Shown: positions 10,904-43,377 of the stretch, piece after piece
How positions within the stretch are numbered: position 1 is the stretch's first letter
Layout: every line of letters begins with the position of its first letter
Assembly (NCBI RefSeq): GCF_000740775.1
Contig: NZ_JFGS01000006.1
Coordinates: 92,769-156,768, forward strand
Length of the DNA: 64,000 nt
Reading direction: 5' to 3'
Origin: Haematobacter missouriensis
GTDB taxonomy: Bacteria > Pseudomonadota > Alphaproteobacteria > Rhodobacterales > Rhodobacteraceae
Translations under genes and position numbers: made by a program
The notes under the pieces: generated by a model
What the model was told of the DNA's origin: nothing
The model's input: only the letters and a program-made list of their open reading frames with translations
The model's database searches: none

Positions 10904-10911
10904 CTGTCAAG

Positions 10912-10948: not shown

Positions 10949-10960
10949 CAGAAAGACGAG

Positions 10961-10991
10961 AAAAAACCCCGGAGCGGGGCTCCGGGGTTTT
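10961..10991 (-). terminator. Rho-independent terminator after rplT
   Basis: A 9-bp stem (CCCCGGAGC / GCTCCGGGG) around a 3-nt loop, flanked by A6 on the left and T4 on the right, so on the minus strand it ends in a run of six U. It lies about 30 bp after the rplT stop. It is the only classical T-tract terminator I found in the window, and could also work on the opposite strand. Confidence 0.85.
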
Positions 10992-11018
10992 CATGACTGT
11001 CCGAACGTGCGGGTGGGA

Positions 11019-11384
11019 TCAGGCGGCCAGAGCGGCCTTGGCCTTTTCCACGATCGCACCGAAGGCTTCCGGCTCATGCACGGCGAGATCGGCGAGCACC
11101 TTGCGGTCCACCTCGATCCCCGATTTGGCAAGGCCGTTGATGAAGACCGAGTAGGTCATATCGGCATCGGCCAGCCGCACGGCGGCGTTGATGCGCTGGA
11201 TCCACAGCGCGCGGAAGTTCCGCTTGCGGACCTTCCGGTCGCGCGTCGCGTACTGGTTCGCCTTGTCCACCGCCTGCGTGGCGGTGCGGAAGTTGCGCGA
11301 ACGGGCGGAGTAGTAGCCCTTCGCGGCCTTCAGGATTTTCTTGTGAGCGGCGTGGGTGACCTTGCCGGATTTGACGCGTGCCAT
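11019..11384 (-). CDS. rplT: 50S ribosomal protein L20
   Basis: 121 residues, a normal length. It begins [19 protein letters not shown] and contains [33 protein letters not shown] and the late [19 protein letters not shown], all L20 signatures. L20 binds 23S rRNA early in assembly of the large subunit and can autoregulate its own operon. It is 13 bp downstream of rpmI; infC is not adjacent. Confidence 0.97.
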
Positions 11385-27478: not shown

Positions 27479-29412
27479 TGGCGAGCCTTCTTTCCCGTCT
27501 GGGCATTGACGCGGCCCGCCTGCGCTTTACCGGACTGACGGCGCTTGCAGCCTGTCTGTCGCTGGTTGCGGCCTGGGCATTGGGGCTGGAGCATCCGCAA
27601 TGGTCGGCCATGTCGGTCTGGGCGGCAGCGCTGCCGGTGCGCGGCCAGCTTGTGGAAAAAGCCGCCAACCGGTTTCTGGGCACCGTGGTCGGCGCGCTGT
27701 TCGGCATGGGGCTGATGGTTGTCTCCGGCGGCGACATGGTGGTTCTGGTCGTGGGAATCGCGCTGTGGCTGGGGCTTTGCGCCGGGATCGGGAACGTCAT
27801 CCGGGGGTTCGCGGCCTACGGCGCCATGCTGGCGGGCTATTCCGCGGCCATGGTCGCGCTTCTTGATACCGGACATCCTGAGAACGTACTGGACCTTGGG
27901 CTGGACAGGATGGCGACGGTGCTTGTCGGCGTCGCCATCGCGCTGGCCGTCGGCTGGGTCTTTGGTCGCGCCGCCGACCGGTCGGAGCCTTACGCCCGCG
28001 TCAGGGTGCTGACCCGTAGCCTGCTGACCGCGGCTGCCGCCACGCTCCGCGGCGTGCCTGCCGACGCGCGGGAGGCGACGGCCCTCCTCTCCGAAATGGC
28101 GTCGATCGAGGATACTCTGGACACCGCCACCGCCGGCTCCCGCCGCGCCCGCAGGAGCGCGCGGGCGACCCGCTGGCTTCTGTCGGGGCAGGTCGGGCTG
28201 ATGCTCTGGCTCCGGTCGGAACGGGAGGGCCGCGTGCCGCGCACGGGGGATGCGCACACGGCGGCAGCGCTGGACACCGCTGCCGCCGCCATCGACCGGG
28301 GGGACGACATCTCGCCGGTGTTGCGCGCCGCGGCGGCCGAGGCCGGTCCCGCGCTCGCCCGCGCCCTCACCGCCCTGGCCGATGCGCCGTGGCAGGAGGC
28401 GGGGCGCGCCGATCCGGCGCCCGTCCACCGCGACTGGCGGGGGGGCCGTGAGGCGGCAATCCGGGCCGTCGTGACCATGCTGGTCGTGGGCGGCATCTGG
28501 ATCGTCACGGGCTGGTCCTTTGGGGCCTACATGATGCTGGGTGCATCAATCATGACCTCGGTCTTTTCGAGCTTCGACAACCCGTCGGTGACAATCCGTA
28601 CCGTGCTGCTCGGGCAGGCGCTTGGGGCACTTGGGGCGCTGGCGGTGCGATGGCTGCTCTGGCCGCTCGCATCCGGCGAGTTCGGTCTCATCCTCCTCAT
28701 GATGCCCGCGATTCTCATCGGCGCCCTGCTGATGGCGCAGCGGCGGATGGGACAGGCGGCCTATGACTACAATATGGTCGTCATGCTGATGCTGCAGCCC
28801 GTCTGGCCGCTCACGATGAGCCTGTCCACCTCGATCACGGCCGCTGTGGCCGTGGTGCTGGGTCCGCTCGCCGGGCTGGTGGCGTTCCGGCTGATCTATC
28901 CGGTGGATGGCGTCCGGCGGCTGACAATGCTGCGCGAAACCATGGTGACGGAGTTGACCCACCTCGCACGGGAGCCGCAGGCGGCGCATCGGGCTTCGGT
29001 CTGGCGGGCACGGCTTCATCACCGGGTGCTGCGGCTGGTCCGCTGGTCGGAAAAGCTTGACCGCGCGCCTGTCCGGGCGGCGGACGGGGGGCTGGCGGTG
29101 CTGACGCTCGGACGGGCGATCCTTCATCTCCACGATCTCTCTGCCCTGCCGCTCTCGCCGCCGCAGACCCGGCGCGTTCGCGCGGTTCTGGAACGCCTGT
29201 CCCGGCTGGACCGGGAGCCTCGCAAGGCTGCCCGCGCGCTGCGGAAGGGCGCAGATGCGCTTGCCGCCGTGCCATCGGCGGATGTCCGGCTGCTCCGCGC
29301 CGCCGCGGACGGGCTGGAGCAGAACATCGACTTCTTCCAGCTTGGGACCGGTGTCACCCCCTCCGGCGGCGCATCAGGTGATCCGGTCAGCGCCGGGCCC
29401 GCCCCTGCATGA
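27478..29412 (+). CDS. FUSC-family membrane protein (aromatic acid exporter-like)
   Basis: 644 residues with two hydrophobic blocks of about five to six helices each (residues 15-165 and 325-475), separated by a long soluble domain. This is the duplicated architecture of FUSC/AaeB-like exporters. Recognisable stretches are LEHPQWSAMSVWAAALPVRG, with NRFLGTVVGALFG in the first half, and GWSFGAYMMLGASIMTSVFSS in the second. AaeB relatives export hydroxylated aromatic acids through the inner membrane. Start and MarR stop overlap by one base (TAATG). The last 26 bp overlap the convergent permease gene. Confidence 0.86.
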   Translation: MASLLSRLGIDAARLRFTGLTALAACLSLVAAWALGLEHPQWSAMSVWAAALPVRGQLVEKAANRFLGTVVGALFGMGLMVVSGGDMVVLVVGIALWLGLCAGIGNVIRGFAAYGAMLAGYSAAMVALLDTGHPENVLDLGLDRMATVLVGVAIALAVGWVFGRAADRSEPYARVRVLTRSLLTAAAATLRGVPADAREATALLSEMASIEDTLDTATAGSRRARRSARATRWLLSGQVGLMLWLRSEREGRVPRTGDAHTAAALDTAAAAIDRGDDISPVLRAAAAEAGPALARALTALADAPWQEAGRADPAPVHRDWRGGREAAIRAVVTMLVVGGIWIVTGWSFGAYMMLGASIMTSVFSSFDNPSVTIRTVLLGQALGALGALAVRWLLWPLASGEFGLILLMMPAILIGALLMAQRRMGQAAYDYNMVVMLMLQPVWPLTMSLSTSITAAVAVVLGPLAGLVAFRLIYPVDGVRRLTMLRETMVTELTHLAREPQAAHRASVWRARLHHRVLRLVRWSEKLDRAPVRAADGGLAVLTLGRAILHLHDLSALPLSPPQTRRVRAVLERLSRLDREPRKAARALRKGADALAAVPSADVRLLRAAADGLEQNIDFFQLGTGVTPSGGASGDPVSAGPAPA

Positions 29413-31165
29413 GTTCCATTACCAGGAACAGCAGCGCCACGATCACCGTCACCACCACGGAGGCCGCGGCAAGCGTGGGGTTCACCTGAAAGAGAATGTC
29501 GTCCCACATCTGCTTGGGCAAAGTGGTGACCAGACCGCCGCCGACGAACATGGCGATGGTGAGTTCCTCGAACGACTGCAGGAAGCCGGTGATGAATCCC
29601 ACGACAAGCCCACTCGCCACCAGCGGCAGGGTGATCCGCCGGGCGATGGCAAGCGGAGGCGCCCCCAGCGTCGCTGCCGCTTGATCCAGCCGCCAGTCGT
29701 GGCCCTTGAAGGTGCCGAGGAGGACGACGAACACGATGGGCAGCGCGATGACCGAATGCCCGACGATCAGCGCGGCATTCGTTGCGACCATCTGGAACTG
29801 TGCGAAGACGTAGAAGAGCGACATGGCGATGACGATGGTGGGCACGACCATGGGCGCCATGAACAGCAGGAACAGTGGTCCCGACAGACGGCTGTCGCCC
29901 CGCACCACCGCCAGCGCGGCAAGGCCCGCCAGCACCACCGTGACCACCGCCGTCGCAAGGCCCACGGCGAAGGAGCGCGTCATTGCCGCCAGCCAGAGGG
30001 GGGAGCTAAAGAAGGTTTCAAACCAACGCAGGCTGAAACCTTCGGGCGGAAAGGTCATGAAGTCGCCCGCTGTGAAGGCCATCGGGAAGAACCCTACCAC
30101 CGGAAACAGCAGCACGAGGATCAGCCCCCAGGCATAGAGATCGAGCAGTCGTGCGCCCGGCAGGCCCCGGAGATGGCTTGCCCAGAGCTGCTCCACCTTC
30201 GCGAAGCTCTCGCCCAGACCCGTCGCCACGCCCAGACCCAGACGGCGGAACAGGCTCTCAGGCGGACGCGGGCGCGCCCCGCCTCCGGCGATGGAGGAAA
30301 TGCCGAACACCCGGTCGAACAACAAGATGGCGAGCAGGGTGCTCCCCATAAGCACCAGCGCCAGCACCGCGCCGAACTGCCAGTTCTGAAGCTGGTTGAT
30401 CTGCGAGATGATCATCTGGCCGATCAGCGTTTCCTTGGGTGAGCCGATGAGCGCGGGAGTGATGAAGAATCCCAGCGACATGACGAAGATCAACAGCGCC
30501 GCCGTTGCGACCCCGCGCATGGAAAGCGGCAGGTAGATGCGCCAGAACGCCTGCGCCCCCGTCGCGCCGAGCGTGGCGGCGGCGGGCGTCAGGCGCCTGT
30601 CGATCTGGTTGAGCACCGGCATCATCGTGACCACGCCGAGGGGCAGCATCGTATGCGCCATCCCGAGCATTACCGTCGGGCGGGAGAACAGCAGCCCGTC
30701 GCCGCCCGGTAGCCCGAGCGCATTCATCGCGGCCGCCACCACGCCGTTCCGGCCCAGCAGCACCAGCCAGGAGAAGTTCTTGACCAGCGCGCTCGTCCAG
30801 AAGGCCAGAAGCACCAACATCAGCACTATCCGCTGCCGCCGTGGCGGTTGCTTTGCAAGCCAGTAGGCCAGCGGATAGCCCAACAGGATGCAGATTACCG
30901 TCACCTGAAAGGCGATGGCGAAGGTGGTCTGCAGCACCCGCTGATACAGGGGGGAGGAGACGAGCTTTCGGAAGCCTTCGAGGCTGAACGCTCCATGCTT
31001 GTCCTGGAACGCCACAGTCATCATCTGGCCTACGGGCCAGAGGAACCACACGGCAAGGAACAGCAGAGCCGGCAGCGCCAGCCAGAGAAGCGATACCCGC
31101 CGTTGCCGCCGGACGGGCCGCGGGGCGGGTGAGGTCATCGCGGGCGCGAGGGTCTGATCGGTCAT
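29387..31165 (-). CDS. Fused PotB-PotC type ABC permease
   Basis: About 592 residues holding two complete binding-protein-dependent permease domains in one chain. The first (residues 20-280) resembles PotB: WLALPALLFLAVWFLWP at the start and the ATLGATGAQAFWRIYLPLSM coupling loop. The second (about 330-590) resembles PotC: FSLRWFETFFSSPLW and a second loop AATLGAPPLAIARRITLPL. Polyamine-type importers normally use two separate permeases. The start at 31165 follows GGAAGCCGAGAG. It works with the binding protein at 31356 and the ATPase at 32460, and its 3' end overlaps the convergent FUSC gene. Confidence 0.88.
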   Translation of the reverse strand: MTDQTLAPAMTSPAPRPVRRQRRVSLLWLALPALLFLAVWFLWPVGQMMTVAFQDKHGAFSLEGFRKLVSSPLYQRVLQTTFAIAFQVTVICILLGYPLAYWLAKQPPRRQRIVLMLVLLAFWTSALVKNFSWLVLLGRNGVVAAAMNALGLPGGDGLLFSRPTVMLGMAHTMLPLGVVTMMPVLNQIDRRLTPAAATLGATGAQAFWRIYLPLSMRGVATAALLIFVMSLGFFITPALIGSPKETLIGQMIISQINQLQNWQFGAVLALVLMGSTLLAILLFDRVFGISSIAGGGARPRPPESLFRRLGLGVATGLGESFAKVEQLWASHLRGLPGARLLDLYAWGLILVLLFPVVGFFPMAFTAGDFMTFPPEGFSLRWFETFFSSPLWLAAMTRSFAVGLATAVVTVVLAGLAALAVVRGDSRLSGPLFLLFMAPMVVPTIVIAMSLFYVFAQFQMVATNAALIVGHSVIALPIVFVVLLGTFKGHDWRLDQAAATLGAPPLAIARRITLPLVASGLVVGFITGFLQSFEELTIAMFVGGGLVTTLPKQMWDDILFQVNPTLAAASVVVTVIVALLFLVMELMQGRARR

Positions 31166-31180
31166 CTCTCGGCTTCCTTC

Positions 31181-31204
31181 GGTCTTCGATCCGGTCTTCG
31201 ATCC
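31181..31204. repeat. 12-bp tandem duplication
   Basis: GGTCTTCGATCC occurs twice in direct succession (31181 and 31193), just upstream of the fused permease gene. Confidence 0.8.
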
Positions 31205-31303
31205 AGTTCCGGGCCGCTCTGCGGCCGGCAATCGCCGTGTTCCCGAGCGCCGCCGGTATGTTCAGCTCCGGCAGGCCATGAATGCAGCAGGCCGGACAGG
31301 GGT

Positions 31304-31355: not shown

Positions 31356-32426
31356 TCAGAGCAGCAGCCATTCCTCCATCCGCTCCACCACCTTATCGTT
31401 GTTCGCCGTCCACCATTCGGAGTTCAGCATGGTCAGGTTCTTGATGTTGTCGGGGAAGGTCGGCATCCGGTGGGCACGGTCCGCGTCCATGTGTTCAAAG
31501 GCGCCGTTGTTGGTCGGGCCATTCGCCACGATGCTGGAATAATGGCCCTGCCGGTCCGGGCGGAGGCAGAAGCGGCAGAATTCGCGCACCTCCTCCAGAT
31601 GCGGCGTGCCCTTCACCACGGACCAGCCGTCCACGTTGTAAAGCCCGTTCCAGACCGGGGTGACGGGTGCGCCCGCGTCGATGGCGGCAAAGGTGCGCCC
31701 GGCCCAGGAGTCGGACATGTCCACTTCGCCGTTCTGGAGGATCTGGGTGTTCTGCGCGCCGCTTGCCCACCAGACGGAGACATGCTCCTTGATCTGGTCG
31801 AGCTTGGCAAAGGCCCGGTCCATGTCGATCGGATACAGGTCCTGGGGCGCCACGCCATCCGCCAGCAGCGCCAGTTCCAGCATCCCGGAAGCCCCGCGGT
31901 AAAGACCGCGCCGTCCGGGATATTTCTCGACATCCCAGAAATCGGCCCAGGTCTTGGGGCCGTTTTCGCCGAACTTGTCGTTCCGGTAGGCCATGATGAT
32001 GCCATAGACGGAAAAACCGGCCCAGTCGGCGGTAAGTGTGCCGGGGATCATGCCGTCAACGCTTTCGGGCGCGAAGCCAAGCGTCTCGATATAGTCCCCC
32101 GCCTCGTGCAGGCGGGCGACGTGATCGGGCGTCACCATGCAGGCGTCCCACAGGAAGGTCTTGGTATCGACCAGCATCTTGAACTGGCTGACCGGATCCG
32201 CGTCATGGGCGACGTTGACGACCTCGATCCCGGTTTCCTGCTGGAAGGGGTCGCAGAACGCCGTCTTGATGGCCGCTGCGGGAGCGCCGCCGACATCTGC
32301 GATGGTGATCCGCTTGGTTTGGGCGAGAGCGCCGCGCGGCAGGATTGCCGGGGCGGCAAGGCCTACCGCGCCGATGGCCGCAGTCTTGAGAAGTCCACGG
32401 CGGGTCGGCCTCATCAGTGTAGTCAT
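31356..32426 (-). CDS. Polyamine-type ABC transporter substrate-binding protein (PotD family), Tat-exported
   Basis: 356 residues. The N terminus MTTLMRPTRRGLLKTAAIGA with a following Ala-rich stretch and AQT cleavage site is a twin-arginine signal, so the protein is exported folded to the periplasm. The mature part is a PotD/family-1-like binding protein: TIADVGGAPAAAIKTAFCDP, WADFWDVEKYPGRRGLYRG, GEVDMSDSWAGR and NGLYNVDGWSVVKGTPH. Substrate is probably a small amine or betaine-like solute, but the binding pocket cannot be read safely. It lies 33 bp after the ATPase gene. Confidence 0.88.
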   Translation of the reverse strand: MTTLMRPTRRGLLKTAAIGAVGLAAPAILPRGALAQTKRITIADVGGAPAAAIKTAFCDPFQQETGIEVVNVAHDADPVSQFKMLVDTKTFLWDACMVTPDHVARLHEAGDYIETLGFAPESVDGMIPGTLTADWAGFSVYGIIMAYRNDKFGENGPKTWADFWDVEKYPGRRGLYRGASGMLELALLADGVAPQDLYPIDMDRAFAKLDQIKEHVSVWWASGAQNTQILQNGEVDMSDSWAGRTFAAIDAGAPVTPVWNGLYNVDGWSVVKGTPHLEEVREFCRFCLRPDRQGHYSSIVANGPTNNGAFEHMDADRAHRMPTFPDNIKNLTMLNSEWWTANNDKVVERMEEWLLL

Positions 32427-32459: not shown

Positions 32460-33533
<1,074 letters not shown>

Positions 33534-33589
33534 CTCTCGCTCCCGTCGTGGCTGATCCTCTGGTGATGGGCGCGAGGGGCGACGGCGTA

Positions 33590-33628
33590 AATTAAGAAAA
33601 CCGGCGGGTTTGGTTAGGGAAGTCCTAT
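33590..33628 (-). promoter_or_regulatory. Shared composite promoter/operator, copy 1 (importer operon)
   Basis: Plus strand: AATTAA (33590-33595), 18 bp, TTAGG (33614-33618), 5 bp, CCTAT (33624-33628). On the transcribed strand the AT-rich block lies at a -10 position 57 bp before the ATPase ATG, and the TAGG/CCTA dyad would cover the -35. Two more copies with identical spacing lie at 38352-38390 and 41687-41725. Confidence 0.65.
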
Positions 33629-33671
33629 CCATTGAGCGTCCGGCCCGGAGAAAGTGGCAATATGGCGGTCA

Positions 33672-33701
33672 ACTGGCGTGGCGACATGTCCCCACGCCAG
33701 T
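33672..33701 (-). other. Hairpin between LysR and the importer operon
   Basis: A perfect 10-bp stem ACTGGCGTGG / CCACGCCAGT with a 10-nt loop, about 80 bp after the LysR stop on the minus strand. It may end the lysR transcript. No U-tract follows. Confidence 0.45.
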
Positions 33702-33782
33702 GGCCATGATAGCGCTAAATGCTGCGCTGCCGCAAAATGGGCGCTGGTGCCTATTTTCGCGGCACTCCCGTAAGCGCGGGGG

Positions 33783-34730
33783 TCAGGCGCGGACCCGCCG
33801 CTCCATCAGCGGCGCGACCATTCCGGGGATATAGGAATCGGAGATATGCGTGCGGCAATGTTCCGCGAAAGCCTCCACCAGCCGGGATTTCCGCCTTTCC
33901 TTGAGCGTGGCGAGGCCGAGGATCATCGGTCGCGGTTCCCCCGCGATGCGGACGCGGACCACCTTCCGCCCATCCATCGCAAGGTCTGACCGGGGCAGGA
34001 CATTGGCGAGCGTGTAACCATAGCCGTTCGCCACCATCGTCCGCAGGATCTCAGGGTAGGGGGAGCGCCCGCCGATCACCGGATCGAGTCCCGCCTGAAG
34101 GAAGATCGAGAGAAAGTACTCCCGGCTGGAGGGCAGATCCAGCAGCAGCAGCGGCTCGCCTGCCAATTCGCGGACCGTGATCGCGGGCAGAGTGGCGAAG
34201 GGATGCACCTCTCCCACCACCGCATGCAGCGGCAATGATGCAAGGGGCGTAAATTCGAAACCATCTGGGACAAGAAGGTCATAAGTGATGGCGATGTCCG
34301 ATTCCCCGTCGACCAGCGCCCGGAGAAGTTGATCATGATCGCCGATCAGTGGTGCGATGGCAGTGGTCGGGAAGGCCCGTGTGAAGGAATGACTGAGTTC
34401 GGGCAGCACCATGGACGCGAGCGTCGCCATGCAGCCAAGGCTCAATTGACCGCGCACCATGTCGGTTGCCTCGGAAGCGGCGGCGTAGAGCTGCTGTGCC
34501 TGCTCCACGAGCCGCTTCGCCTCCGCCAGCACCGCCCGTCCGGCCGGGGTGAGAGAAAGGCCCTGCGCATGGCGACGGATGAACAACTGGGTGCCCAGCT
34601 CCTCCTCCAGATGTGCGATGGCGGTGGAGATGGAGGGCTGCGAGATGTTCACCCGCTCCGAGGCAAGGGTGATCGACCCGGTCTCGGCGGTGGCGATGAA
34701 ATACTCGATCTGGCGAAGAGTGTAGCGCAT
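33783..34730 (-). CDS. LysR-family transcriptional regulator
   Basis: 315 residues. The N-terminal DNA-binding domain is LRQIEYFIATAETGSITLASERVNISQPSISTAIAHLEEELG and the effector domain begins about residue 90 (GQLSLGCMATLASMVLPELSHSF). It resembles the NAC/Cbl/OxyR-like side of the family. It is upstream of, and co-oriented with, the polyamine-type importer, separated by 250 bp that hold a hairpin and the shared operator, so it is a candidate regulator of the importer or of the catabolic genes to its right. Confidence 0.88.
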   Translation of the reverse strand: MRYTLRQIEYFIATAETGSITLASERVNISQPSISTAIAHLEEELGTQLFIRRHAQGLSLTPAGRAVLAEAKRLVEQAQQLYAAASEATDMVRGQLSLGCMATLASMVLPELSHSFTRAFPTTAIAPLIGDHDQLLRALVDGESDIAITYDLLVPDGFEFTPLASLPLHAVVGEVHPFATLPAITVRELAGEPLLLLDLPSSREYFLSIFLQAGLDPVIGGRSPYPEILRTMVANGYGYTLANVLPRSDLAMDGRKVVRVRIAGEPRPMILGLATLKERRKSRLVEAFAEHCRTHISDSYIPGMVAPLMERRVRA

Positions 34731-35370
34731 GGGGAATTATCGCCCTCCTACCGGCAAGCGCAACAGCGCGCGCCTGCAGCCGGGATCGGTTGGGGCGCAA
34801 CGGCAGGCCGGTCCTGTGCCATCTATTCCGCCAGGGCGATACCGGCAACGGGACGCCTGCCGCCGAGGCGGTCCCAAACGCGGCGCTAAGGGCGTGCCGC
34901 CGGCTCTTGTCCCCCTTCGTGAGCCTTCATCTCCGCTGCGCGCTGATGGTCTGAAACTGGCCTTATGAGGGAACTTTATTCCAGATCCCTGCTGAAAGAT
35001 GAGTTCTGACACGGCCTCCGCCGCGAGCAGTCGCCCTAATCGCGCGCTCCCGCGACCGGCGCTTGCACGTGACGCTGTTTCCATCGGTCATGCCCCGACA
35101 AGCGAGGTGGAGCAGCGTGCGGCCGCCTCAGGGTCAGATCGCCGCCACATCCATAGGCGAGTGGAGCGGAATGCCGGCAAGGAGACGATGGCAGAGAGCG
35201 CCCTTGGAGGCAGGAACGCCTCCATGCTCCTGCGTCACCGCTTGTCTCCGGAAATTCCCCGTAGCGCGCGGGATCGAAGCCGCTCGGCAACAGGACGATG
35301 GCGGGATCGCTGCAATGGACTGCGCCGTCGCAGGCGTTGGAACCGCTCCCATGGCGCGCTCTGCCTGGCG

Positions 35371-35697
35371 ATGACCCGAAGGATGGGCGGCGCACCAGGC
35401 CGTCGCATGCGCCGGGATCCTTCCCGCAGGGCAATCTGCCATAGATGACCCGTGAGATGAGCAGGTGGGCGGCCCGCCACGCCGTTGCGGAGGGCCGGAA
35501 GCCCCCCCAGACGGGTGTCTCCATGGATGAGCTGCAGGATGATCAGGCGGCGGGGGCGCCTGCTGCGGTATCGCAGGCATCGGCCTTCCCCACGCGGGCA
35601 CTCTGCTCGGCGATGACCCGTGAGGCGAGCAGGCAGGCGGCCGCCGCGCCGTTGCGGAGCCGAAGGCCCTCCAGACGGGTGCCCCATGGATGACCCG
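35371..35697. repeat. Diverged tandem duplication, unit about 242 bp
   Basis: The gene-free stretch 34731-35864 contains the word ATGACCCG at 35371, 35445, 35612 and 35689. The first and third share CTCTGC..GGCGATGACCCG context, and the second and fourth share GGATGAC/AGATGACC context with GCCGTTGCGGAG and CCAGACGGGTG blocks, giving a period of about 241-244 bp. Overlapping minus-strand frames only translate this repeat and do not look like a protein. I see nothing else in the 1.1 kb. Confidence 0.55.
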
Positions 35698-35864
35698 CAA
35701 TATTGGCGGGCGGCGGAAGGTGCCTGCCGCGCCGCCGCTGAGCGGGCGGGTGGAGCAGGTGCAGGCCCTCCCGGTGGCCAGATGGGACGCAGTTCGCGGC
35801 CTGCATGCTCGCTGTCGCCGGACGCCATGGGCGCGGGCGGCATTGCTTTCGCCTGCAGGCCTGG

Positions 35865-36539
35865 TCAGAGATCGCCCGGCACGCCGTAGCTCGGGGCGGC
35901 TTCGGGCGCGACGGCACGCCTGACGTAATCCTCAAGCTGTGGCGCGTAGATTTCCCACAATGCGCGCAGCCGCCCGATGGGATCGGTATCGTCCCAGTCC
36001 ACGCGCAGATCGGCGATGGGCCATGTGACATCGCGTACCACCAGCAACCCGGCGGAATGGACCGGCCCTGCCTCGCCCCCGGCTCCTTGCCCGGCCTCCA
36101 GCGCGGCAAGGAGCCGTTCCGGAAGCGTACCCTCGGCTGCCTCGAAGCCGCGGACCATCGCGTCGGGCACGTTCTCGCTGGCCAGAAGGTTGCCCGCAGC
36201 GGCGCAGAACCGCCCCCGCGCCGTGCCGAAAGTTCCGAGAACACGGGCACCGGAATGAATGGCACTCTGACCGGTGGCGTCCACGATCACCACTTGCCGC
36301 CAATCGGCGGTGGCGTAACCGTCCAGCAGCGCCGCGAGCGCCTCTTCCGCCCCCACACCACGCGCCATGAGGTCGAGCGCGCGGGGACCGAGTGACGGAT
36401 CAGTCACGTTCTGGCTGGCGACCACGCCGACCCCCGCACGGGAATGGGAACAGCGCGCCGCAACCGCCGGAGAGGAAGAACTGATCGCGATGCCGAACGC
36501 CCCGGTGTCGGGACAGGTGGCGGAGATGGAGAAGGTCAT
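35865..36539 (-). CDS. DUF1028 family protein
   Basis: 224 residues. The start TFSISATCPDTGAFGIAISSSSPAVAARC and the GVGVVASQNVTDPSLGPRAL and GFEAAEGTLPERLLAALEAG blocks are typical of DUF1028, an Ntn-hydrolase-like family whose enzymatic role is unknown and which often neighbours RidA and amidases. It is the last gene of the six-gene minus-strand operon starting at 41499. Confidence 0.85.
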   Translation of the reverse strand: MTFSISATCPDTGAFGIAISSSSPAVAARCSHSRAGVGVVASQNVTDPSLGPRALDLMARGVGAEEALAALLDGYATADWRQVVIVDATGQSAIHSGARVLGTFGTARGRFCAAAGNLLASENVPDAMVRGFEAAEGTLPERLLAALEAGQGAGGEAGPVHSAGLLVVRDVTWPIADLRVDWDDTDPIGRLRALWEIYAPQLEDYVRRAVAPEAAPSYGVPGDL

Positions 36540-36629
36540 CCGTGCAGGCTCTTTACTGGCTCAGGGGCTGTGTCAGGAGTTGTCCCGGACGGGCGGGTGC
36601 CGCTGGAGGGTGCCCGCCCCGTCCGGCGC

Positions 36630-37046
36630 TCAGTCCGGGATCACGGCGGTCGCGTCGATCTCCACCAGCCATTCGGGGCGGGCAAGGGCGGAGACGACGA
36701 TGCCGGTGGAGACGGGATAGACCCCCTTCAGCCACTTGCCGACGATGCGATAGACAGGTTCGCGGTAGCGCGGGTCGATCAGATAGATGACGATCTTGGT
36801 AATATGCTCAAGCTCGCCGCCCGCTTCCTCGAGCAGCATCTTGATATTGGCCATCGCCTGTTCCGCCTGCGCCGCCGGATCGCCGATCCCGACGTTTTCG
36901 GCCGTGTCCAGATTCTGGCCGATCTGGCCGCGCAGGAACACAGTCTGCCCCCGTGCCACGACGGCCTGACAGAGATCGTTGTCGAGGTTCTGCTCGGGAT
37001 AGGTGTCCTTGGTGTTGAACATGCGGATGCGCTTGTGCACGGGCAT
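36630..37046 (-). CDS. RidA/YjgF/YER057c family protein
   Basis: 138 residues, the usual length. It has VFLRGQIGQNLDTA near residue 37, AQAEQAMANIKMLLEEAG, HITKIVIYLIDPRYREPVYRIVGKWL and the end block VSALARPEWLVEIDATAVI. The last part contains the Arg-Pro-Glu context of the RidA active site. RidA proteins hydrolyse reactive enamine/imine intermediates; relatives serve in pyrimidine or aminophenol breakdown. Its place beside oxygenases suggests the pathway yields an imine. AAAGG precedes the ATG. Confidence 0.88.
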   Translation of the reverse strand: MPVHKRIRMFNTKDTYPEQNLDNDLCQAVVARGQTVFLRGQIGQNLDTAENVGIGDPAAQAEQAMANIKMLLEEAGGELEHITKIVIYLIDPRYREPVYRIVGKWLKGVYPVSTGIVVSALARPEWLVEIDATAVIPD

Positions 37047-37083
37047 CTTGGGGGCCTTTCAGGCGTTGTGCCGGGGTTCGGTT

Positions 37084-37136
37084 GGTCGAAAACCGGGGGT
37101 CGTGAATCGGGGTTCGAGAATCGGTGGGTCGAAATC
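37084..37136. repeat. 14-bp tandem repeat, about 3.8 units
   Basis: GGTCGAAAACCGGG, GGTCGTGAATCGGG and GTTCGAGAATCGGT lie head to tail, followed by a partial GGGTCGAAATC. They fill most of the spacer between the Rieske oxygenase and ridA genes. Confidence 0.75.
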
Positions 37137-38286
37137 AGCTTTCGGCGGAAAGCGCGCCCACGCGGCGGGCGATGTAGCGGGCGAACTCGAAATTCGGCCG
37201 CTCCAGATGCGACAGATGCCCCGGGGCGCCGAACCGGGAGGAGACGCCGCGGAACACGCGCTCGGTGCACCCTTTGTCTTCCTCGTTCACTTCGTCGAGC
37301 AGGGTCTTCAGAGCGGCGAAATGCGCTTCTGCTTCCGGATCGGCCATGAACTCGGGCGAGAGGCCGCCGCCATAGAGGATCTTCACGTGATCCGGCCCGT
37401 CGGGGTGCAGGCAGAGATACCAGAAATACCCCGGCGTCAGCGTGATGAGCAGCGCGGGATAGAGGGCGAGCAGCCAGGTGATCCGCCGCTCATCCCCTTG
37501 CAGCCGGGTGTTTGTCGGATGGGCAAGCGCCAGCGGCACCGAATCGTTCTTGACGATGAAATGGTAGTTGAAGGCATCCGTCCCCTCGGGGCAGGTCATC
37601 TTCATCAGGTTCACCGAGCCGCCGATCGTGTCCGAATGGCAGACCGGCAGGTGGTAGCTCTCCATGAAGTTCTCCGCCAGCACCTTCCAGTTGGTGTTCC
37701 AGCGGTGCTCCTCCCGGAAGGTCTCCACATAGGATCCCATGTCGAGATAACCGACCAGCTTCTCCACATCCGCGAGCCGCTCGGCCGGGGCGGGGGCGTC
37801 CGGGTTCAGCGTGACCAGGATCCAGCCCAGCCACTCCTCGCAGCGGATCTGCGGAAGCGCGACATCGGTCTTGCAGAAGCTCTCGTTCAGCCCCATCGCA
37901 GGCGCGCCGCGCAGCGAGCCGTCAAGGTTGTAGGTCCAGGCGTGATAGGGACAGACAATGGCGCGCGTCTGGCCGCGGCCCTCCAGCAGCGTCGACATCC
38001 GGTGGCGGCAGACGTTGGACATGGCGCGGAGCTTTCCCTCCCGGTCGCGCAGCACGATGATCGGCTCGCCCGCGATGTCCATGGTCAGGTAGTCGCCTGG
38101 TTCCTTCAATGCGTCCGCCCGCCCTGCACAGAGCCAGTCGCGGGCGAAAATCGTCTCCAGCTCCCGCGCCACGAACGCCTCGGACGTGTAAACGGATTTC
38201 GGCATGGCGCGGGCCTTTTCAAAAGGCTGGCTCACGTTCTGCGCAAGTTCCTCAATGGGCTGGAGTGCGGGATCGTGCTGCGTCAT
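37135..38286 (-). CDS. Rieske non-haem iron oxygenase, alpha subunit
   Basis: 383 residues. The Rieske [2Fe-2S] ligands are in SNVCRHRMS and IVCPYHAWTY (CxH ... CxxH, residues 90-112). The mononuclear iron site is in NWKVLAENFMESYHLPVCH (about residues 195-214). Overall similarity is to the choline/glycine-betaine monooxygenase-like group that hydroxylates or demethylates small amines. No reductase gene is beside it. The start at 38286 follows AAAGGCGGA. A copy of the composite promoter/operator lies 66 bp upstream, so it can be transcribed separately from the genes before it. Confidence 0.9.
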   Translation of the reverse strand: MTQHDPALQPIEELAQNVSQPFEKARAMPKSVYTSEAFVARELETIFARDWLCAGRADALKEPGDYLTMDIAGEPIIVLRDREGKLRAMSNVCRHRMSTLLEGRGQTRAIVCPYHAWTYNLDGSLRGAPAMGLNESFCKTDVALPQIRCEEWLGWILVTLNPDAPAPAERLADVEKLVGYLDMGSYVETFREEHRWNTNWKVLAENFMESYHLPVCHSDTIGGSVNLMKMTCPEGTDAFNYHFIVKNDSVPLALAHPTNTRLQGDERRITWLLALYPALLITLTPGYFWYLCLHPDGPDHVKILYGGGLSPEFMADPEAEAHFAALKTLLDEVNEEDKGCTERVFRGVSSRFGAPGHLSHLERPNFEFARYIARRVGALSAES

Positions 38287-38351
38287 GGGTGTCCGCCTTT
38301 CACAAAGGGCCTGCCTCTATGCGAAGACTACTCCGCCCGGGGAGAGTGAAG

Positions 38352-38404
38352 AATTATCAACTTCTGCACCCCTGCTTAGGCTTTGCCTAATCCGGGGTGC
38401 AGAA
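38352..38404 (-). promoter_or_regulatory. Shared promoter/operator, copy 3, nested in a strong hairpin
   Basis: AATTAT (38352-38357), 18 bp, then the perfect palindrome TTAGG-CTTTG-CCTAA (38376-38390). The palindrome is enclosed by 11-bp perfect arms TTCTGCACCCC (38362-38372) and GGGGTGCAGAA (38394-38404), so the same bases can form an RNA hairpin directly after the dehydrogenase stop codon. Terminator and operator functions may be combined. Confidence 0.65.
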
Positions 38405-39346
38405 TCAACATGCCACGCCGCGCGGCACGCAGCCTATCATCACCTCTCCCCGCTCCGAGCGGCGGATGTTTTCCGCGATTGTCAGTGCGGCGCTGGCTGC
38501 GCGGGTCTGACTGGCGATATGCGGCGTGAGAATCACGCGCGGATGCGACCAGAGCGGATCGTCCTGCGGAAGCGGTTCCGGGTCGGTCACGTCGAGCACG
38601 GCAGCTGACAGATGCCCTTCGTCAAGCGCGGCAAGCAGGGCACGCCCGTCGAGCTGAGGCCCGCGTCCGGCATGGACGAGACCTGCGCCTTCGGGAAGAG
38701 CCGCCAGAAGCTCCGCGTCGAGGATCCCCCGGGTTTCGTCTGTCAGCGGCAGGAGGCAGACGAGGATGTCGCTTTTCCGCACCATCTGTTCCAGGCCCGC
38801 CGCCCCTGTGAAGGAGGCAACGCCCGGCACGTCCCGCGGTGTCCTGCTCCATCCTGCCAGCCGGAAGCCGAAAGGTCGCAGCCGTTCCGCCGCCGCGCGG
38901 CCCAGCTCTCCGAGGCCGAGGATACCCACCTGCCGTTCGGAGGGCGGCGGATTCGGCAGTTGCCGCCACTGTCGCCGTGCCTTCTGCACCATGTAGGCAG
39001 GCAGGTCGCGGTGGAGAAGCAGCACCGACATGGCCACGTAATCCGCCACCGAGGCTGCCACCGCAGGATCCACCAGGCGGACGAGGTCGGTCTGCCCGGG
39101 GAAATCCTCCTGCCGGAACTGGTCGATCCCGGCGGAGAGCGAGAAGACGCAGCGCAGCGCCGGGAGCAGTCGGTGAAGACCGGCGGGCGCGCGATAGGTG
39201 ACGAGGTAGCGCACTTCCTCTGCGGCCATGTCTCCGGGCATCACGCCCTCAGGCGCGGCCAGTACGCGACGGCCCGGAAATTCGCGCCGGAGGATGTCGG
39301 AGAGCGTCGCCACCCGCTCCGCATCAGCGCTGATGAGAATGGTCAT
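38405..39346 (-). CDS. D-2-hydroxyacid dehydrogenase (glyoxylate/hydroxypyruvate reductase A-like)
   Basis: 313 residues. The NAD(P)-binding motif is VGILGLGELGRAAAERL. The catalytic Arg is in LVHAGRGPQLD, Glu in VTDPEPLPQDD and His in RVILTPHIAS, all in the right order. The short N-terminal domain and SLSAGIDQF stretch fit the GhrA-like subgroup, which reduces 2-keto acids such as glyoxylate. The start codon touches the stop of the aldolase gene, so the two are co-translated. Confidence 0.88.
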   Translation of the reverse strand: MTILISADAERVATLSDILRREFPGRRVLAAPEGVMPGDMAAEEVRYLVTYRAPAGLHRLLPALRCVFSLSAGIDQFRQEDFPGQTDLVRLVDPAVAASVADYVAMSVLLLHRDLPAYMVQKARRQWRQLPNPPPSERQVGILGLGELGRAAAERLRPFGFRLAGWSRTPRDVPGVASFTGAAGLEQMVRKSDILVCLLPLTDETRGILDAELLAALPEGAGLVHAGRGPQLDGRALLAALDEGHLSAAVLDVTDPEPLPQDDPLWSHPRVILTPHIASQTRAASAALTIAENIRRSERGEVMIGCVPRGVAC

Positions 39347-40089
39347 CAGTCGGCGTAATCCGGCTCTTCGCGATCGAGAATCCGCTTCATTTCCTCGAAA
39401 TGCGCGATGGAAAAATCGCGGATGCCTTCCCAGTCGACCGCCGTGGCCTCCGCCACCTCGTCCGACAGCACGGAAAGTGGTTGGCCCGTGGCATAGGCGG
39501 TGGTGAGAATCTGGCAGGCGCGCTCCATCGTGTAGATGTCGTCAAAGGCCACACCGATATTGTCGGAAGCGACGAGGATCCCGTGGTTGCCCATCATAAG
39601 CCGTGAATGATTGCCGAGCAGCCCTGCCAGCCGCGCGCCTTCCTCCACCGAATCGGCCATGCCGCCATAGTGCAGATCCACGGCCACGCGGTTGAAATAG
39701 CGGGCGGTGTTCTGGTCGATGGGCAGGATCGCGGGGTTTTGCAGGCAGGCGATCGCAGTGGCGTGGATCGGGTGCAGATGCATCACCACACGCGCCGAGG
39801 GGTTCGACTTGTGGATCTGGCCGTGGATCGCCCAGGCTGTAGGGTCCACCAGACCACCCCTCGCCGTCGCCGGGTCATCGGCATCAAGCAGGAGCAGGTC
39901 GCTGGCCCGGATGGTGGAGAAATGCTTCCACTTGGGGTTCAGCAGGAACTGGCGGCCGTCGGGGGAAACGGCGGCGCTGAAGTGGTTCGCGACGGCTTCG
40001 TGCATGCCCAGCCGCGCGACGATGCGGAAGGTCGCGGCAAGGTCGATGCGGAGCTGCCGTTCATCCGCCGATGTGGTGACATCTTTCAT
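39346..40089 (-). CDS. Class II aldolase/adducin family protein
   Basis: 247 residues. Zinc-site histidines are visible in VVMHLHPIHATAIA (HxHP motif) near residue 101 and in LMMGNHGILVAS. MHEAVANHFSAAVSPDG at the start is typical of the group. Members cleave or decarboxylate hydroxylated keto acids, or act as epimerases, so the reaction is not fixed by sequence. The ATG follows AGGACCTCCCC. Confidence 0.87.
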   Translation of the reverse strand: MKDVTTSADERQLRIDLAATFRIVARLGMHEAVANHFSAAVSPDGRQFLLNPKWKHFSTIRASDLLLLDADDPATARGGLVDPTAWAIHGQIHKSNPSARVVMHLHPIHATAIACLQNPAILPIDQNTARYFNRVAVDLHYGGMADSVEEGARLAGLLGNHSRLMMGNHGILVASDNIGVAFDDIYTMERACQILTTAYATGQPLSVLSDEVAEATAVDWEGIRDFSIAHFEEMKRILDREEPDYAD

Positions 40090-40146
40090 GGGGAGGTCCT
40101 GTCGGTATGTGGCGGGCGTCTGCTGGCCCGCCTGAGGGGGGAGGGC

Positions 40147-41499
40147 TTATTCCGCGGCGAGGCTGGCGCTCGCCGTCGCATGGCGGTTCGGCGGGCGTTT
40201 CAGCCCCAGATTCTCGCGCAGCGTGGTGCCGGTGTATTCGGTGCGGAACAGCCCGCGGCGCTGAAGTTCGGGCACCACCTTCGTCGTGAAGTCGGTCAGG
40301 CTCTCCGGCAGCACCGGGAAGGCGATCATGAAGCCATCTGAGGCGCCCGAGGTGACCCAGTCCTCCATCTTGTCGGCCACCTGTGCACCGGTGCCGAAGA
40401 AGATCGCCTTGGAACGGTTGTATTTGCGCATCACTTCCCGGAGCGTCAGGCCCTGGCGGATGAGGCCGACGATCTCGTCGAAATAGACCTGATGGAAGTT
40501 CGATTTCTCCGGGATGCGATGTTCCGGGACCGGCTCGTCCAGCGGCAGGTCCGACAGGTCGGTTTCCAGATCGGTCTTCATGTACATCAGACTGATGTCC
40601 GTGTGGACGAGGCTTTGCCAGTAGTCCCACTTGCGGCGGGCGTCCTCCTCGTCCTCTCCCACGACGATGGAGACGCCGGAGAGTACCTTCAGCTCGTCCC
40701 GGTCGCGGCCGAATTTCGCCATGCGGCCCTTCAGGTCTTCGTAGAAGCGGATGGCCTGCGCCTTGTTGGCTCCCGTGCCGAACACCACTTCGGCCGTTTC
40801 GGCGGCGAGCTCCTTGCCCGCTTCCGAAGCGCCCGCCTGGAAGATCACCGGGTGTCCCTGCGGTGGCCGCGCCATGTTGAGGCCGCCGTGCACCTTGAAG
40901 AAGGGCCCCTCGTGATCCGTGACATGGAACTTCGCCGGATCGAACATCCGTACGCCGTCGCGGTCATAGACAAAGGCGTCGTCCTCCCATGTGTCCCAGA
41001 GGGAGGTGACGATCTTGAAGAATTCCTGCGCCTTCTCATAGCGGCGATCATGCGGTGGTAGCTTGTCCAGCCCGAAGTTGCGCGCCGCGAAATCGTTCGC
41101 GGAGGTCACGACGTTCCACGCTGCGCGCCCGTGGCTGATATGGTCGAGCGAGGCGAAGAGCCGCGCCACGTTGTAGGGCTCGTAAAAGCTGGTGGACGCC
41201 GTCGCGCCCAGCCCGATATGCGAGGTGCACCCCGCCAGTGCCGTCAGCAGGGTGATCGGCTCCAGCATGTTCATGTAGAGCGGCCCGCGCGTCCACGCAT
41301 CGAGCTTCTCCGTCCGCGCGGCGGGCGTATCAGCCAGGAAGAAGAAATCGAGCTTCCCGTCCTCGGCCTTCCGCACGATGTCCTTGAAGTAATCGACATC
41401 GGTGGCAGCCCCATCTGTCGCTCCCGGCACCAGCCAGGCGGAGGAATGGTAGCCGTTCGCTTCGAAAAGCCCGCCCAAGACCATGGGTTTTTGTGTCAT
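40147..41499 (-). CDS. LLM-class FMN-dependent monooxygenase (NtaA/SnaA/DszA family)
   Basis: About 450 residues of the group C flavin monooxygenases that use FMNH2 from a separate reductase. Typical stretches are LDFFFLADTPA, EPITLLTALAGCTSHIGLGATASTS, HISHGRAAWNVVTS, RYEKAQEFFKIVTSLWDTW and GHPVIFQAGASEAGKELAA. Relatives attack nitrilotriacetate, EDTA, sulfones, sulfonates and pyrimidines (RutA is a distant cousin). The start MTQKPMVLGG at 41499 follows AAAGGAA. It is the first gene of the operon reaching to DUF1028. No flavin reductase is encoded nearby. Confidence 0.9.
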   Translation of the reverse strand: MTQKPMVLGGLFEANGYHSSAWLVPGATDGAATDVDYFKDIVRKAEDGKLDFFFLADTPAARTEKLDAWTRGPLYMNMLEPITLLTALAGCTSHIGLGATASTSFYEPYNVARLFASLDHISHGRAAWNVVTSANDFAARNFGLDKLPPHDRRYEKAQEFFKIVTSLWDTWEDDAFVYDRDGVRMFDPAKFHVTDHEGPFFKVHGGLNMARPPQGHPVIFQAGASEAGKELAAETAEVVFGTGANKAQAIRFYEDLKGRMAKFGRDRDELKVLSGVSIVVGEDEEDARRKWDYWQSLVHTDISLMYMKTDLETDLSDLPLDEPVPEHRIPEKSNFHQVYFDEIVGLIRQGLTLREVMRKYNRSKAIFFGTGAQVADKMEDWVTSGASDGFMIAFPVLPESLTDFTTKVVPELQRRGLFRTEYTGTTLRENLGLKRPPNRHATASASLAAE

Positions 41500-41686
41500 A
41501 TCGATTCCTTTCGCGGCGATACCGGATCGCGGAATGTGGGCCAGCCGGCGTGGCGTGCCGGATGGCGGGAGCGGTTGGCCATCGAGCAGAGCGAACCGGA
41601 CATGCGGCACCCGGCGGGCCGCGCCCGGCCCTTGCTCTGTCCGTGCGGGCCTCGGGTTACTTTCTCTGCCAGAGGTGACGGCTGTA

Positions 41687-41725
41687 AATTATGAAAATCG
41701 AGTGCGTTCCATAGGGACGACCTAA
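41687..41725 (-). promoter_or_regulatory. Shared composite promoter/operator, copy 2 (catabolic operon)
   Basis: AATTAT (41687-41692), 18 bp, ATAGG (41711-41715), 5 bp, CCTAA (41721-41725). It has the same geometry as copies 1 and 3, and the wider words GTAAATTAWGAAAAYCG match copy 1 over 17 bp. It lies in the spacer between the divergent monooxygenase and TetR genes. A separate dyad TTAC-N6-GTAA is at 41781-41794, just before the TetR start. Confidence 0.68.
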
Positions 41726-41806
41726 CCATACGGAAGTCTCGGGGTGCTTGACCGGAGCGGAGCGGCGTGGCTCTATCGTGTTACCGATAAGTAAACGCGC
41801 GGTCCC

Positions 41807-42442
41807 ATGTCGAAACCAGCCCTCTCCCCCTGGAGCCATTTCCGCCAGCGCTCGGGAGAGCGAAGCCGCAAGCAGGATGCCGTGCTCCGAACCGCCGCGC
41901 GGTTCTTCAACGAACGTGGTTACCATGCGACCTCGCTCGACGATGTGGCGGAGGCGCTGGGCGTGACCAAGCCGACGATCTATCGCTACTTCGCCAACAA
42001 GGACGAGATTCTCTTTGAATGTACCCGGCGCGGGCTGAACGCCATCGCGGCTTCCGCACGGGATGCCGCGGTGATGGGGGATCCCGCCCCGAAGCGGCTC
42101 CGCGCCATGCTGATGGCCTATGCGCGGATCATGCTGGACGATTTCGGCATCTGCGTGGCGCGGACGCAGGACCACCTGCTCTCCCCGGAAAGCCGTGCCG
42201 CCTTCCGCTCCCTGAAGCGGGAGATCGACCTGCTCATCCGCACCGTGGTGGCGGAGGGAGCGGCGGAGGGAAGCCTCATCGCGCCCGATCCGCGCCTTGT
42301 CACCTTTGCCTTCGCCGGGGCGCTGAACAGTCTCGGCACCTGGTTCGACCCCGCGGGGCCGATGACCGCGGAGGAGGTCGCGACGCGCACGGTGGATGGT
42401 CTCATGCGGGGCGTCATGCCCGGGAAGGACGTCGCACAATGA
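41807..42442 (+). CDS. TetR-family transcriptional regulator
   Basis: 211 residues. The helix-turn-helix reads RTAARFFNERGYHATSLDDVAEALGVTKPTIYRYFANKDEIL (about residues 28-70), the canonical TetR/AcrR domain; the C-terminal ligand domain is not informative. No Shine-Dalgarno is evident before the ATG. It is divergent from the catabolic operon and next to copy 2 of the shared operator, so it is the leading candidate for the regulon's repressor. Its stop overlaps (ATGA) the start of a decayed nitronate monooxygenase gene, which was once co-transcribed. Confidence 0.88.
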   Translation: MSKPALSPWSHFRQRSGERSRKQDAVLRTAARFFNERGYHATSLDDVAEALGVTKPTIYRYFANKDEILFECTRRGLNAIAASARDAAVMGDPAPKRLRAMLMAYARIMLDDFGICVARTQDHLLSPESRAAFRSLKREIDLLIRTVVAEGAAEGSLIAPDPRLVTFAFAGALNSLGTWFDPAGPMTAEEVATRTVDGLMRGVMPGKDVAQ

Positions 42443-43377
42443 CGCTGCCGAAAGCGTTCGAGGCCCTGCGCCTGCCCGCCGTCGCCGCACCGAGTTCCTG
42501 ACCTCCGGCCCTGATCTGGCGGTGGAGATGTGTCGTTCGGGCTTGGTGGGCACCTTTCCGGCGTTGAACCAGCGCAGCACCGAAGGCTTCGTCGCCTGAC
42601 TCGAGGAGATATAAAGACTCTTCTGCGAGCCTTCGATGCCGCTGCCCCTATGGGGTGAACCTCGTCGTCCACCGCTCCAATCCCAGTCTGCGCGCCGTTC
42701 TGGAAGAGGTGGTCCGGCATCGCGTGCCGCTGGTTTCACCTCGCTGGGCGCGGTCGCGGATGTGGGGGATGCGGTGCGTCCCTATGGCGGGTTGGTGTTC
42801 CATGATGTCATCAGCCGCCGCCATGCGGAAAAGGCCGTGGAGGCGGGGGTGGACGGGATCATCCCCGCGGCGGCAGGGGCCGGGGACATGCGGGCCAGAT
42901 CAGCCCCTTGCCCTGGTGTCGGAGATCCGCCCCCTCTTCGACGGGGCCATCGCGCTTTCGGGGGCCATGTCCACCAGCGCGCATATCGCCGCGGCGCGGG
43001 CGATGGGGGCGGACCTCGCCTATCTCGGCACCCGTTTCCTTACCACGCGCGAGGCGATGGTGAGCCTTGCGCAGAAGGAGATGACCGTGGCCGCGCGTGC
43101 GGCCGATATCCTCTACACACCGGCGATTTCCGGGGTGGGGGCGAATTTTCTTGCGCAGAGCGTCGTTGCCGCAGGCATGGATCCGGCGAACCTGCAAAGC
43201 CGCGGCGAGCTTGACATGGACAACGAGGCGAAGGTCTGGCGGGACGTGTGGCCTGCCGGTCACGGCGTGAGTTCGCTCGACGTCATTCCGGCCGCAGCGG
43301 AACTCTGCGACCGGCTGGCCTTGCAATATTCGGAGGCAATGACGCGACTGGCGCGCGATCCCTTTGTAGGGCGGTAA
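42439..43377 (+). pseudogene. Nitronate monooxygenase, decayed by frameshifts and a nonsense codon
   Basis: Pieces of one 2-nitropropane-dioxygenase-like protein appear in successive frames. Frame 1 gives MTLPKAFEALRLPAVAAP from 42439. Frame 0 gives FLTSGPDLAVEMCRSGLVGTF up to an in-frame TGA at 42597, where relatives have Trp. Frame 1 then gives VNLVVHRSNPSLRAVLEEV, frame 0 gives SLGAVADVGDAVRPYGGLVFHDV, and frame 1 from about 42890 to 43377 gives LVSEIRPLFDGAIALSGAMS and LGTRFLTTREAMV. At least four frameshifts are needed to join them. An intact protein would be about 320 residues and oxidise alkyl nitronates. Confidence 0.85.

Follow-up and report, generated by a model that had tools for sequence, protein, structure and literature searches.

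We analyzed a 64,000-nt stretch of the Haematobacter missouriensis genome (the window; coordinates below are positions in it) in which a promoter element, AATTAW-N18-WTAGG-N5-CCTAW, occurs three times. The LysR-type regulator encoded at 33783-34730 likely binds the three boxes and switches on the three operons behind them on sensing a small molecule, as judged from comparison of sequences. Each of the three promoters would carry a recognition box, TTAGG-N5-CCTAA (with T-N11-A), centered near the predicted -65. The AT block, 18 bp further downstream, would overlap the predicted -35 and the LysR activation site, with a predicted -10 another 17-18 bp later. A LysR tetramer would contact the box and the -35 edge together, in register with RNA polymerase; the 24-bp offset between AT block and dyad would be fixed because the tetramer touches both at once. 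The proposed targets are an importer ATPase, binding protein, and permease (unit 1), a Rieske oxygenase with RidA and DUF1028 proteins (unit 2), and a flavin monooxygenase with an aldolase family protein and a 2-hydroxyacid dehydrogenase (unit 3). The sites themselves, their restriction to this cluster within the genome, their association with the LysR across genomes, and a -10-like peak at a fixed position in relatives are observed; we infer the binding, the activation, the effector, and the substrate. The layout is that of an ordinary LysR regulon, and we could not find its regulator, operator, or target cluster described in open papers.

Occurrence of the element

The element was searched as the pattern given above, with the reversed pattern as a control. 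An earlier note on this DNA had placed three copies in the window; the coordinates were right, with zero mismatches, one orientation, and equal spacing at all three. The window held 3 composite matches, and still 3 when 2 mismatches were allowed, compared to a mean of 0.00 in 100 shuffles. Genome-wide (G000, 3.96 Mb in 136 contigs), there were 3 exact composite matches, all in the window cluster, and no match with 1 or 2 mismatches anywhere in the 3.96 Mb. At 3 mismatches, 15 matches were found versus 13 for the reversed control. A genome scan had been proposed as a way of exposing chance-level occurrence; the pattern was present only at the three window sites and was not at chance level. The dyad WTAGG-N5-CCTAW by itself was found 4 times in the genome, including the 3 copies in the window. 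The fourth (C12:110529) was taken as chance, as it is without the downstream half and the surrounding 9 kb has no score of 8 or more with the profile described below.

All three sites were kept in Haematobacter genomosp. 1 (L031), where the third has one dyad change, and in H. massiliensis (L032). The three window copies differ from each other outside the conserved positions. That they arose by chance or were spread by a mobile repeat has next to no probability, given that shuffling predicts none, the reversed control had no match in 394 genomes of the family Rhodobacteraceae, and the sites are conserved in two other Haematobacter species. These data support a shared regulatory element at the three promoters, which is the core of the regulon claimed earlier. 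The T-N11-A of a LysR-type box is present inside the dyad TTAGG-N5-CCTAA.

A perfect 11-bp inverted repeat, TTCTGCACCCC / GGGGTGCAGAA (38362-38404), is symmetric about site 2 and lies directly 3' of the 2-hydroxyacid dehydrogenase stop. It was rejected as part of the operator; its upstream-side arm is changed in both other species.

Linkage to the LysR-type regulator

Relatives of the window LysR were found at E <= 1e-50 in 97 of the 394 family genomes, at 107 places. We took 98 of these places with their flanks, plus two stretches picked for the pattern itself (L152 and L155), for a total of 100. The window, 99 of the 100 stretches, and six plasmid regions (one picked by its flavin monooxygenase) made up 106 loci, from which a 43-position profile was started with 41 exact dyads and iterated for four rounds. 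Control loci numbered 78 (L033-L110, 1.38 Mb) and included 27 TetR-side loci (L033-L059).

The exact dyad occurred 41 times in 33 of the 100 LysR stretches, compared to a mean of 4.9 for 59 permuted half-sites; the best of these, with 39 occurrences, was TWAGG, which shares TTAGG. At 13.5 bits the profile gave 169 matches in 89 of the 106 loci in the first round and 203 in 94 loci after four rounds, while permuted profiles gave means of 2.4-12.1 over the rounds and largest counts of 6-26. At 26 bits or more there were 158 sites in 87 of the 106 loci, and the best score among the 78 control loci was 25.9 bits. Thirteen control loci reached 13.5 bits, none of them among the 27 TetR loci.

Whole genomes gave a similar association. 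The exact composite was found in 7 of the 394 genomes, at 10 places (reversed control, 0), and 6 of these 7 genomes belong to the 97 with a LysR match. Five places are outside Haematobacter: three lie within 8 kb of a LysR homolog; in G174 a RidA/DUF1028 pair lies 1.4 kb downstream of the place and the LysR 92 kb away; and in G013 there is no partner of this kind. A degenerate consensus drawn from the profile had 21 places in the 394 genomes (reversed control, 1), of which 20 were no more than 10 kb from a LysR match of the E <= 1e-50 set, the exception again being G013. It was present in 20 of 97 genomes with the LysR and 1 of 297 without (Fisher p 2e-12). The LysR at 33783 had been named earlier as an alternative binder, and by this linkage it fits.

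Several results weigh against this assignment. The profile was trained and iterated within LysR loci, so that its counts there, and the consensus drawn from it, are partly circular; the test on exact dyads without tail information is freer of this problem. Twelve of the 106 loci have no profile match at 13.5 bits, L152 and L155 were chosen for the pattern, and three controls (L097, L110, and L068) score 20-26 bits. The G013 site scores 41.9 bits with no close LysR, the sole LysR match at 1e-25 in that genome being 26% identical and 2.9 Mb away.

The G013 site could also mean that a regulator encoded elsewhere binds the element and the LysR is merely a neighbor, and several clusters do carry a second LysR-like match of 28-35% identity. 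We consider this very unlikely, since 20 of the 21 consensus places are close to the LysR and the element itself has LysR geometry (T-N11-A, predicted -65). The G013 site (position 9833 of L155, G013:C1:690000-709500) is near a gene that looks GntR-like by eye (10597-11250), and it is a candidate orphan site or a candidate site of another binder.

The nearest LysR outside the genus, in G239 (L156), is 67% identical to that of the window. This locus had no profile match because the importer promoter is beyond its edge, which falls just inside the importer gene. A further stretch of G239 (L259) holds the element 79 bp before an importer ATPase match (21.1 bits, with the same TTAATTTAC block) and a weaker one, of 14.6 bits, before an aldolase family gene, and L156 as a locus lacking the element was rejected. 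The element was also present on plasmids of Rhizobium sp. ACO-34A (LysR 74% identical), Neorhizobium sp. NCHU2750, Rhizobium jaguaris, Rhizobium sp. CC-CFT758, and Thioclava sp. GXIMD2076, with best scores of 32-37 bits. Pantoea dispersa had a weak element of 25.3 bits.

Identity to the window LysR averaged 64% over residues 1-60 and 40% over the remainder (n = 104 loci). RidA and DUF1028 genes were near the LysR in 81 of the 100 stretches and the TetR in 1 of 100, the one from the same genus. The window protein has PF00126 and PF03466 above cut-off and is by these domains a LysR-type protein. Compared to known LysR equivalogs in NCBIfam, the best among the 25 matches listed, of 55 families, was TIGR03339, at 125.7 bits versus a cut-off of 341.1 bits.

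The lysR gene separates unit 2 from unit 1 and is in line with the importer; its stop precedes site 1 by about 155 bp. A divergent, autoregulated lysR gene is common, not universal, for LysR-type promoters; upstream of the window lysR, the profile gave nothing at 6 bits or above. In the relatives L187 and L198, a dyad lies immediately before lysR.

Two further arrangements of the element were observed. A second place in the same genome (L258, G000:C19:14600-30000) encodes a LysR of 45% identity and has a site of 29.5 bits at locus position 7902, likely a paralogous copy of the switch. In Thioclava sp. GXIMD2076 (L253:7638-7694), two exact dyads 42 bp apart lie between divergent importer genes and score in both directions, likely forming a double switch.

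Promoter layout

Positions in the family logo were counted from the dyad start over the 158 sites of at least 26 bits, the profile covering positions 1-43. Conserved positions were TTAG-N7-CTAA (1-15), C17, G21-C22-T23, A29, T35, and TTT (38-40), and the T-N11-A of LysR-type promoters was nearly invariant (T2 and A14 each in 98% of sites). A second peak was found outside the profile: A62 (70%), T66 (58%), and A at 73-74 (42-47%). The pattern xAxxxT stood at 61-66 in 73 of the 158 sites, compared to 16-17% at starts 60 and 62 and 0-8% at starts 41-59 and 63-105. With the -35 at 38-43 and a 17-bp spacer, the start is predicted at 73-74 and the dyad center at about -65, on the strength of the -10 and A peaks across the 158 sites. 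By convention for LysR regulators, the recognition site (RBS), with T-N11-A, is near -65 and the activation site (ABS) at -35/-10 (PMC8407307).

Orientation was tested with the 41 exact dyads, taken without using downstream information. TT at 38-39 singled out one orientation in 36 of them, and xAxxxT at 61-66 followed in 17 of 36 in the TT orientation and 3 of 36 in the other. When the window and L151-L155 were left out, the counts were 14 versus 3 of 27. Thirty of the 158 sites were inside open reading frames (ORFs) compared to 665 of 790 positions drawn at random. Within 250 nt after position 73, 143 of the 158 sites have a start codon with a ribosome site (median distance 31 nt), as do 251 of the 790 random positions (median 106 nt).

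The earlier note had taken the AT block as a -10, with the dyad covering the -35 as for a repressor. This is not supported as the family rule, as the -10-like peak is 28 bp further downstream; it may still apply at the three window sites and in some relatives. WTAAT at that -10 position was found in 7 of the 36 orientable dyads, 2 of them in the window and 5 in L151-L155, loci taken because they matched the composite. It was missing (positions 34-38) from all 27 orientable exact dyads that remain once the window and L151-L155 are set aside.

One alternative built on this arrangement is that the LysR binds the dyads but chiefly represses, with the AT block as the -10, the dyad over the -35, and an effector that releases the protein. 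LysR-type proteins can repress, and WTAAT stands at the three window sites as well as at the five dyads in L151-L155. A TATAAT match of at least 4 of 6 was also more frequent at 33-38 (37 of 158 sites) than at 61-66 (15 of 158), which counts against the activator layout, as do the poorer fit of sites 1 (28.6) and 3 (27.0) to the family downstream half compared to site 2 (40.0) and the poor -10 matches of sites 1 and 3 (CATCAC, and GAAAGT at 18 bp). The signal at 33-38 comes partly from T35 and T38, which the profile itself selects, and TATAAT-like starts at 59-62 together number 51 of 158 compared to 7 for 75-78. Repression by the LysR is unlikely in view of the xAxxxT and A peaks 28 bp further downstream, the absence of WTAAT from those 27 dyads, and a -65/-35 geometry that is that of activation. 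Most likely, the AT block marks the activation-site edge together with the -35, in the layout of an activator.

The TetR regulator

The TetR encoded at 41807-42442 had been proposed earlier as the best candidate binder, acting as a repressor over the -35. It adjoins unit 3 and diverges from it, site 3 is in the shared intergenic region, and WTAATT at the three window sites resembles a -10. The data for TetR relatives make this reading most improbable. TetR relatives, matched in 98 of 295 genomes at E <= 1e-15, gave 80 loci, many of them distant. The exact dyad was absent from L033-L060 and was present only in L068 among L061-L110. Instead, the palindrome TACT-N4-AGTA was upstream of 19 of 25 TetR relatives (two of the 25, L055 and L056, show the same upstream sequence), and the window has a variant of it, TTACCGATAAGTAA, before its own tetR, which is likely the TetR protein's own operator. 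The distance from the site 3 dyad to the predicted tetR promoter is 27, 31, and 32 bp in three Haematobacter species, while dyad and AT block keep one spacing in all three, 34 bp as measured between chosen marks. Given the TetR's own putative operator, the relatives' palindrome, and a dyad-to-tetR-promoter spacing that varies within the genus, the TetR therefore most likely has a different operator, and it was rejected as the binder.

The surroundings of TetR relatives also differ from the window. A nitronate-monooxygenase-like gene directly follows in 7 of the 27 loci (L040-L043, L049, L050, and L052), and close relatives of the window Rieske oxygenase, flavin monooxygenase, or LysR were found in none of the 27, the sole matches being 28-31% identical (L047, L048, and L053). 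In the window, the nitronate-monooxygenase-like gene after tetR (42439-43377) is fragmentary, with only its later part open (42655-43377); pieces are present in L031 too.

A promoter-like pair, TTGACC / CTCTAT, is upstream of TTACCGATAAGTAA. On the plus strand (41711-41786), the site 3 dyad precedes the tetR promoter at the offset that the LysR element has to its -35; in L031 and L032 the gap is wider by 4-5 bp. The LysR could also touch tetR in this species.

Proposed target genes and features of the window

Each site was confirmed to lie before a minus-strand gene, namely those for the importer ATPase, the Rieske oxygenase, and the flavin monooxygenase (Table 1). Two of the listed ORF starts need correcting. 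The ATPase ORF as listed from 33632 overlaps site 1, and translation likely begins at ATG 33533. For the flavin monooxygenase, ATG 41499 is the likely start rather than GTG 41610, since the match to the family profile in the long ORF starts only at residue 49; the closest solved relatives of this protein are MoxC/YtnJ.

Table 1. Regulators, proposed sites, predicted promoter parts, and genes of the three units in the window.
Feature	Position	Strand	Basis or remark
Site 1: LysR-type dyad 33614-33628 with AT block	33590..33628	-	Before importer ATPase; exact match; profile score 28.6; conserved in L031 and L032
Site 2: dyad 38376-38390 with AT block	38352..38390	-	Before Rieske oxygenase; exact match; profile score 40.0; conserved
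Site 3: dyad 41711-41725 with AT block	41687..41725	-	Before flavin monooxygenase operon; exact match; profile score 27.0; blocks conserved
Predicted -35, promoter 1: TTTACG	33586..33591	-	Positions 38-43 of family logo
Predicted -10, promoter 1: CATCAC	33563..33568	-	Weak match; positions 61-66 of family logo; predicted start ~33556
Predicted -35, promoter 2: TTCTTC	38348..38353	-	Weak
Predicted -10, promoter 2: TAGTCT	38325..38330	-	17 bp from -35; predicted start ~38318
Predicted -35, promoter 3: TTTACA	41683..41688	-	Predicted start ~41653
Nearest -10-like hexamer, promoter 3: GAAAGT	41659..41664	-	
LysR-type regulator, proposed binder and activator	33783..34730	-	Pfam HTH_1 and LysR_substrate; linkage to element
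TetR regulator, by the present evidence not the binder	41807..42442	+	Divergent from unit 3
TTACCGATAAGTAA, variant of TACT-N4-AGTA before tetR	41781..41794	+	1 match; shuffle mean 0.02
Importer ATPase (polyamine type), first gene of unit 1	32460..33533	-	Likely start ATG 33533
Substrate-binding protein of importer, unit 1	31356..32426	-	
Fused importer permease, unit 1	29387..31231	-	Two BPD_transp_1 stretches
Rieske oxygenase, first gene of unit 2	37135..38286	-	Closest solved sequence: carnitine monooxygenase
RidA family enamine/imine deaminase, unit 2	36630..37046	-	
DUF1028 protein, unit 2	35865..36539	-	
NtaA/DmoA-family flavin monooxygenase, first gene of unit 3	40147..41499	-	TIGR03860 above cut-off
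Class II aldolase family protein, unit 3	39346..40089	-	NF005689 above cut-off
2-hydroxyacid dehydrogenase, unit 3	38405..39346	-	

The three units are predicted to import and oxidize an organic nitrogen compound. From the gene content we infer uptake and oxidation of an amine or other nitrogen compound, with RidA clearing the imine. The earlier description of the regulon as undescribed agrees with our search of the open-paper literature, where we found neither the cluster nor the motif nor a Haematobacter regulon described, nor any paper naming DUF1028, PF06267, or COG3342.

Genes downstream of the element in relatives

The first genes downstream of the 158 sites were grouped by single-linkage BLAST, and one member per group was looked at. 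The groups included flavin oxidoreductases (57), amine dehydrogenases (28), Rieske oxygenases (17), importer ATPases (16), RidA (9), HpaB-like hydroxylases (6), ArgE-like deacetylases (6, labeled by eye), and binding proteins (2); for 13 of the 158 sites the rule applied gave no first gene. In the flavin group, the member searched was closest to TIGR04046, and in the HpaB-like group to TIGR02309, both sequences being cut to 330 residues and both matches below cut-off. The member searched in the amine dehydrogenase group, from L225, matched histamine dehydrogenase 6de6 with 643 bits over 330 residues. The commonest first genes in relatives (L225, L178, and other LysR loci) are histamine-dehydrogenase-like genes and MSMEG_0569-like flavin oxidoreductases, which give a lead to the effector.

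A broader proposal, for which we see the chances as evenly balanced, is that one LysR goes with an unvarying 74-bp promoter grammar in both Rhodobacteraceae and Rhizobiaceae while the enzymes are swapped, making a plug-in amine-oxidation regulon to which Haematobacter would have added a third, flavin-monooxygenase operon. The swapped enzymes would be the Rieske oxygenase, luciferase-like monooxygenase, histamine-dehydrogenase-like amine dehydrogenase, flavin monooxygenase, or HpaB-like hydroxylase. Next to them there would usually be RidA, DUF1028, and a polyamine-type importer. For a catabolic cluster widespread among Alphaproteobacteria, of which we found no description, the analysis as a whole supplies an operator, a likely regulator, and predicted transcription starts. 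With the operator profile, further members could be recognized from their sequence, and knowing the effector of a single purified LysR would indicate what substrate the group as a whole handles.

Comparison with known systems

BenM/CatM and CbbR are LysR-type regulators whose promoters have a recognition site at -65 and an activation site at -35. The promoters described here are alike in the T-N11-A dyad near the predicted -65, the activation region over the predicted -35, and the proposed catabolic targets. They differ in the half-site TTAGG, the long downstream half GCT-N5-A-N5-T-N2-TTT, and the presence of three units in one cluster. The OxyR site, ATAG-N7-CTAT, has the same half-site spacing as WTAGG-N5-CCTAW; here, in contrast, one dyad is followed by a promoter half, and the window LysR matches OxyR chains weakly (67 bits). 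A full-length match of 213.9 bits was found to the LysR with structures 3fzv / 6m5f ('Probable transcriptional regulator'), with a similar helix-turn-helix in which QPSIST is shared; that search yielded neither an operator nor an effector.

Rut and NtaA/DmoA-type clusters likewise combine a luciferase-like monooxygenase with a RidA protein, whereas the window has in addition the Rieske oxygenase, DUF1028, and the polyamine-type importer. Scores against the Rut families were all far below cut-offs (RutA, 80.4 versus 498.3 bits; RutC, 34.7 versus 169.1; RutR, 32.6 versus 368). The likeness to histamine dehydrogenase 6de6 concerns a first downstream gene in one relative, L225; no such gene was among the scanned genes of the window cluster, where the oxygenases are the Rieske oxygenase and the flavin monooxygenase.

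Intergenic repeats

No tandem array was detected by TRF, no gene was recognized, and no link to the sites was found in the interval of approximately 1.1 kb between lysR and the DUF1028 gene (34731-35864). This interval contains imperfect direct repeats, several of them at a spacing of 82-86 bp.

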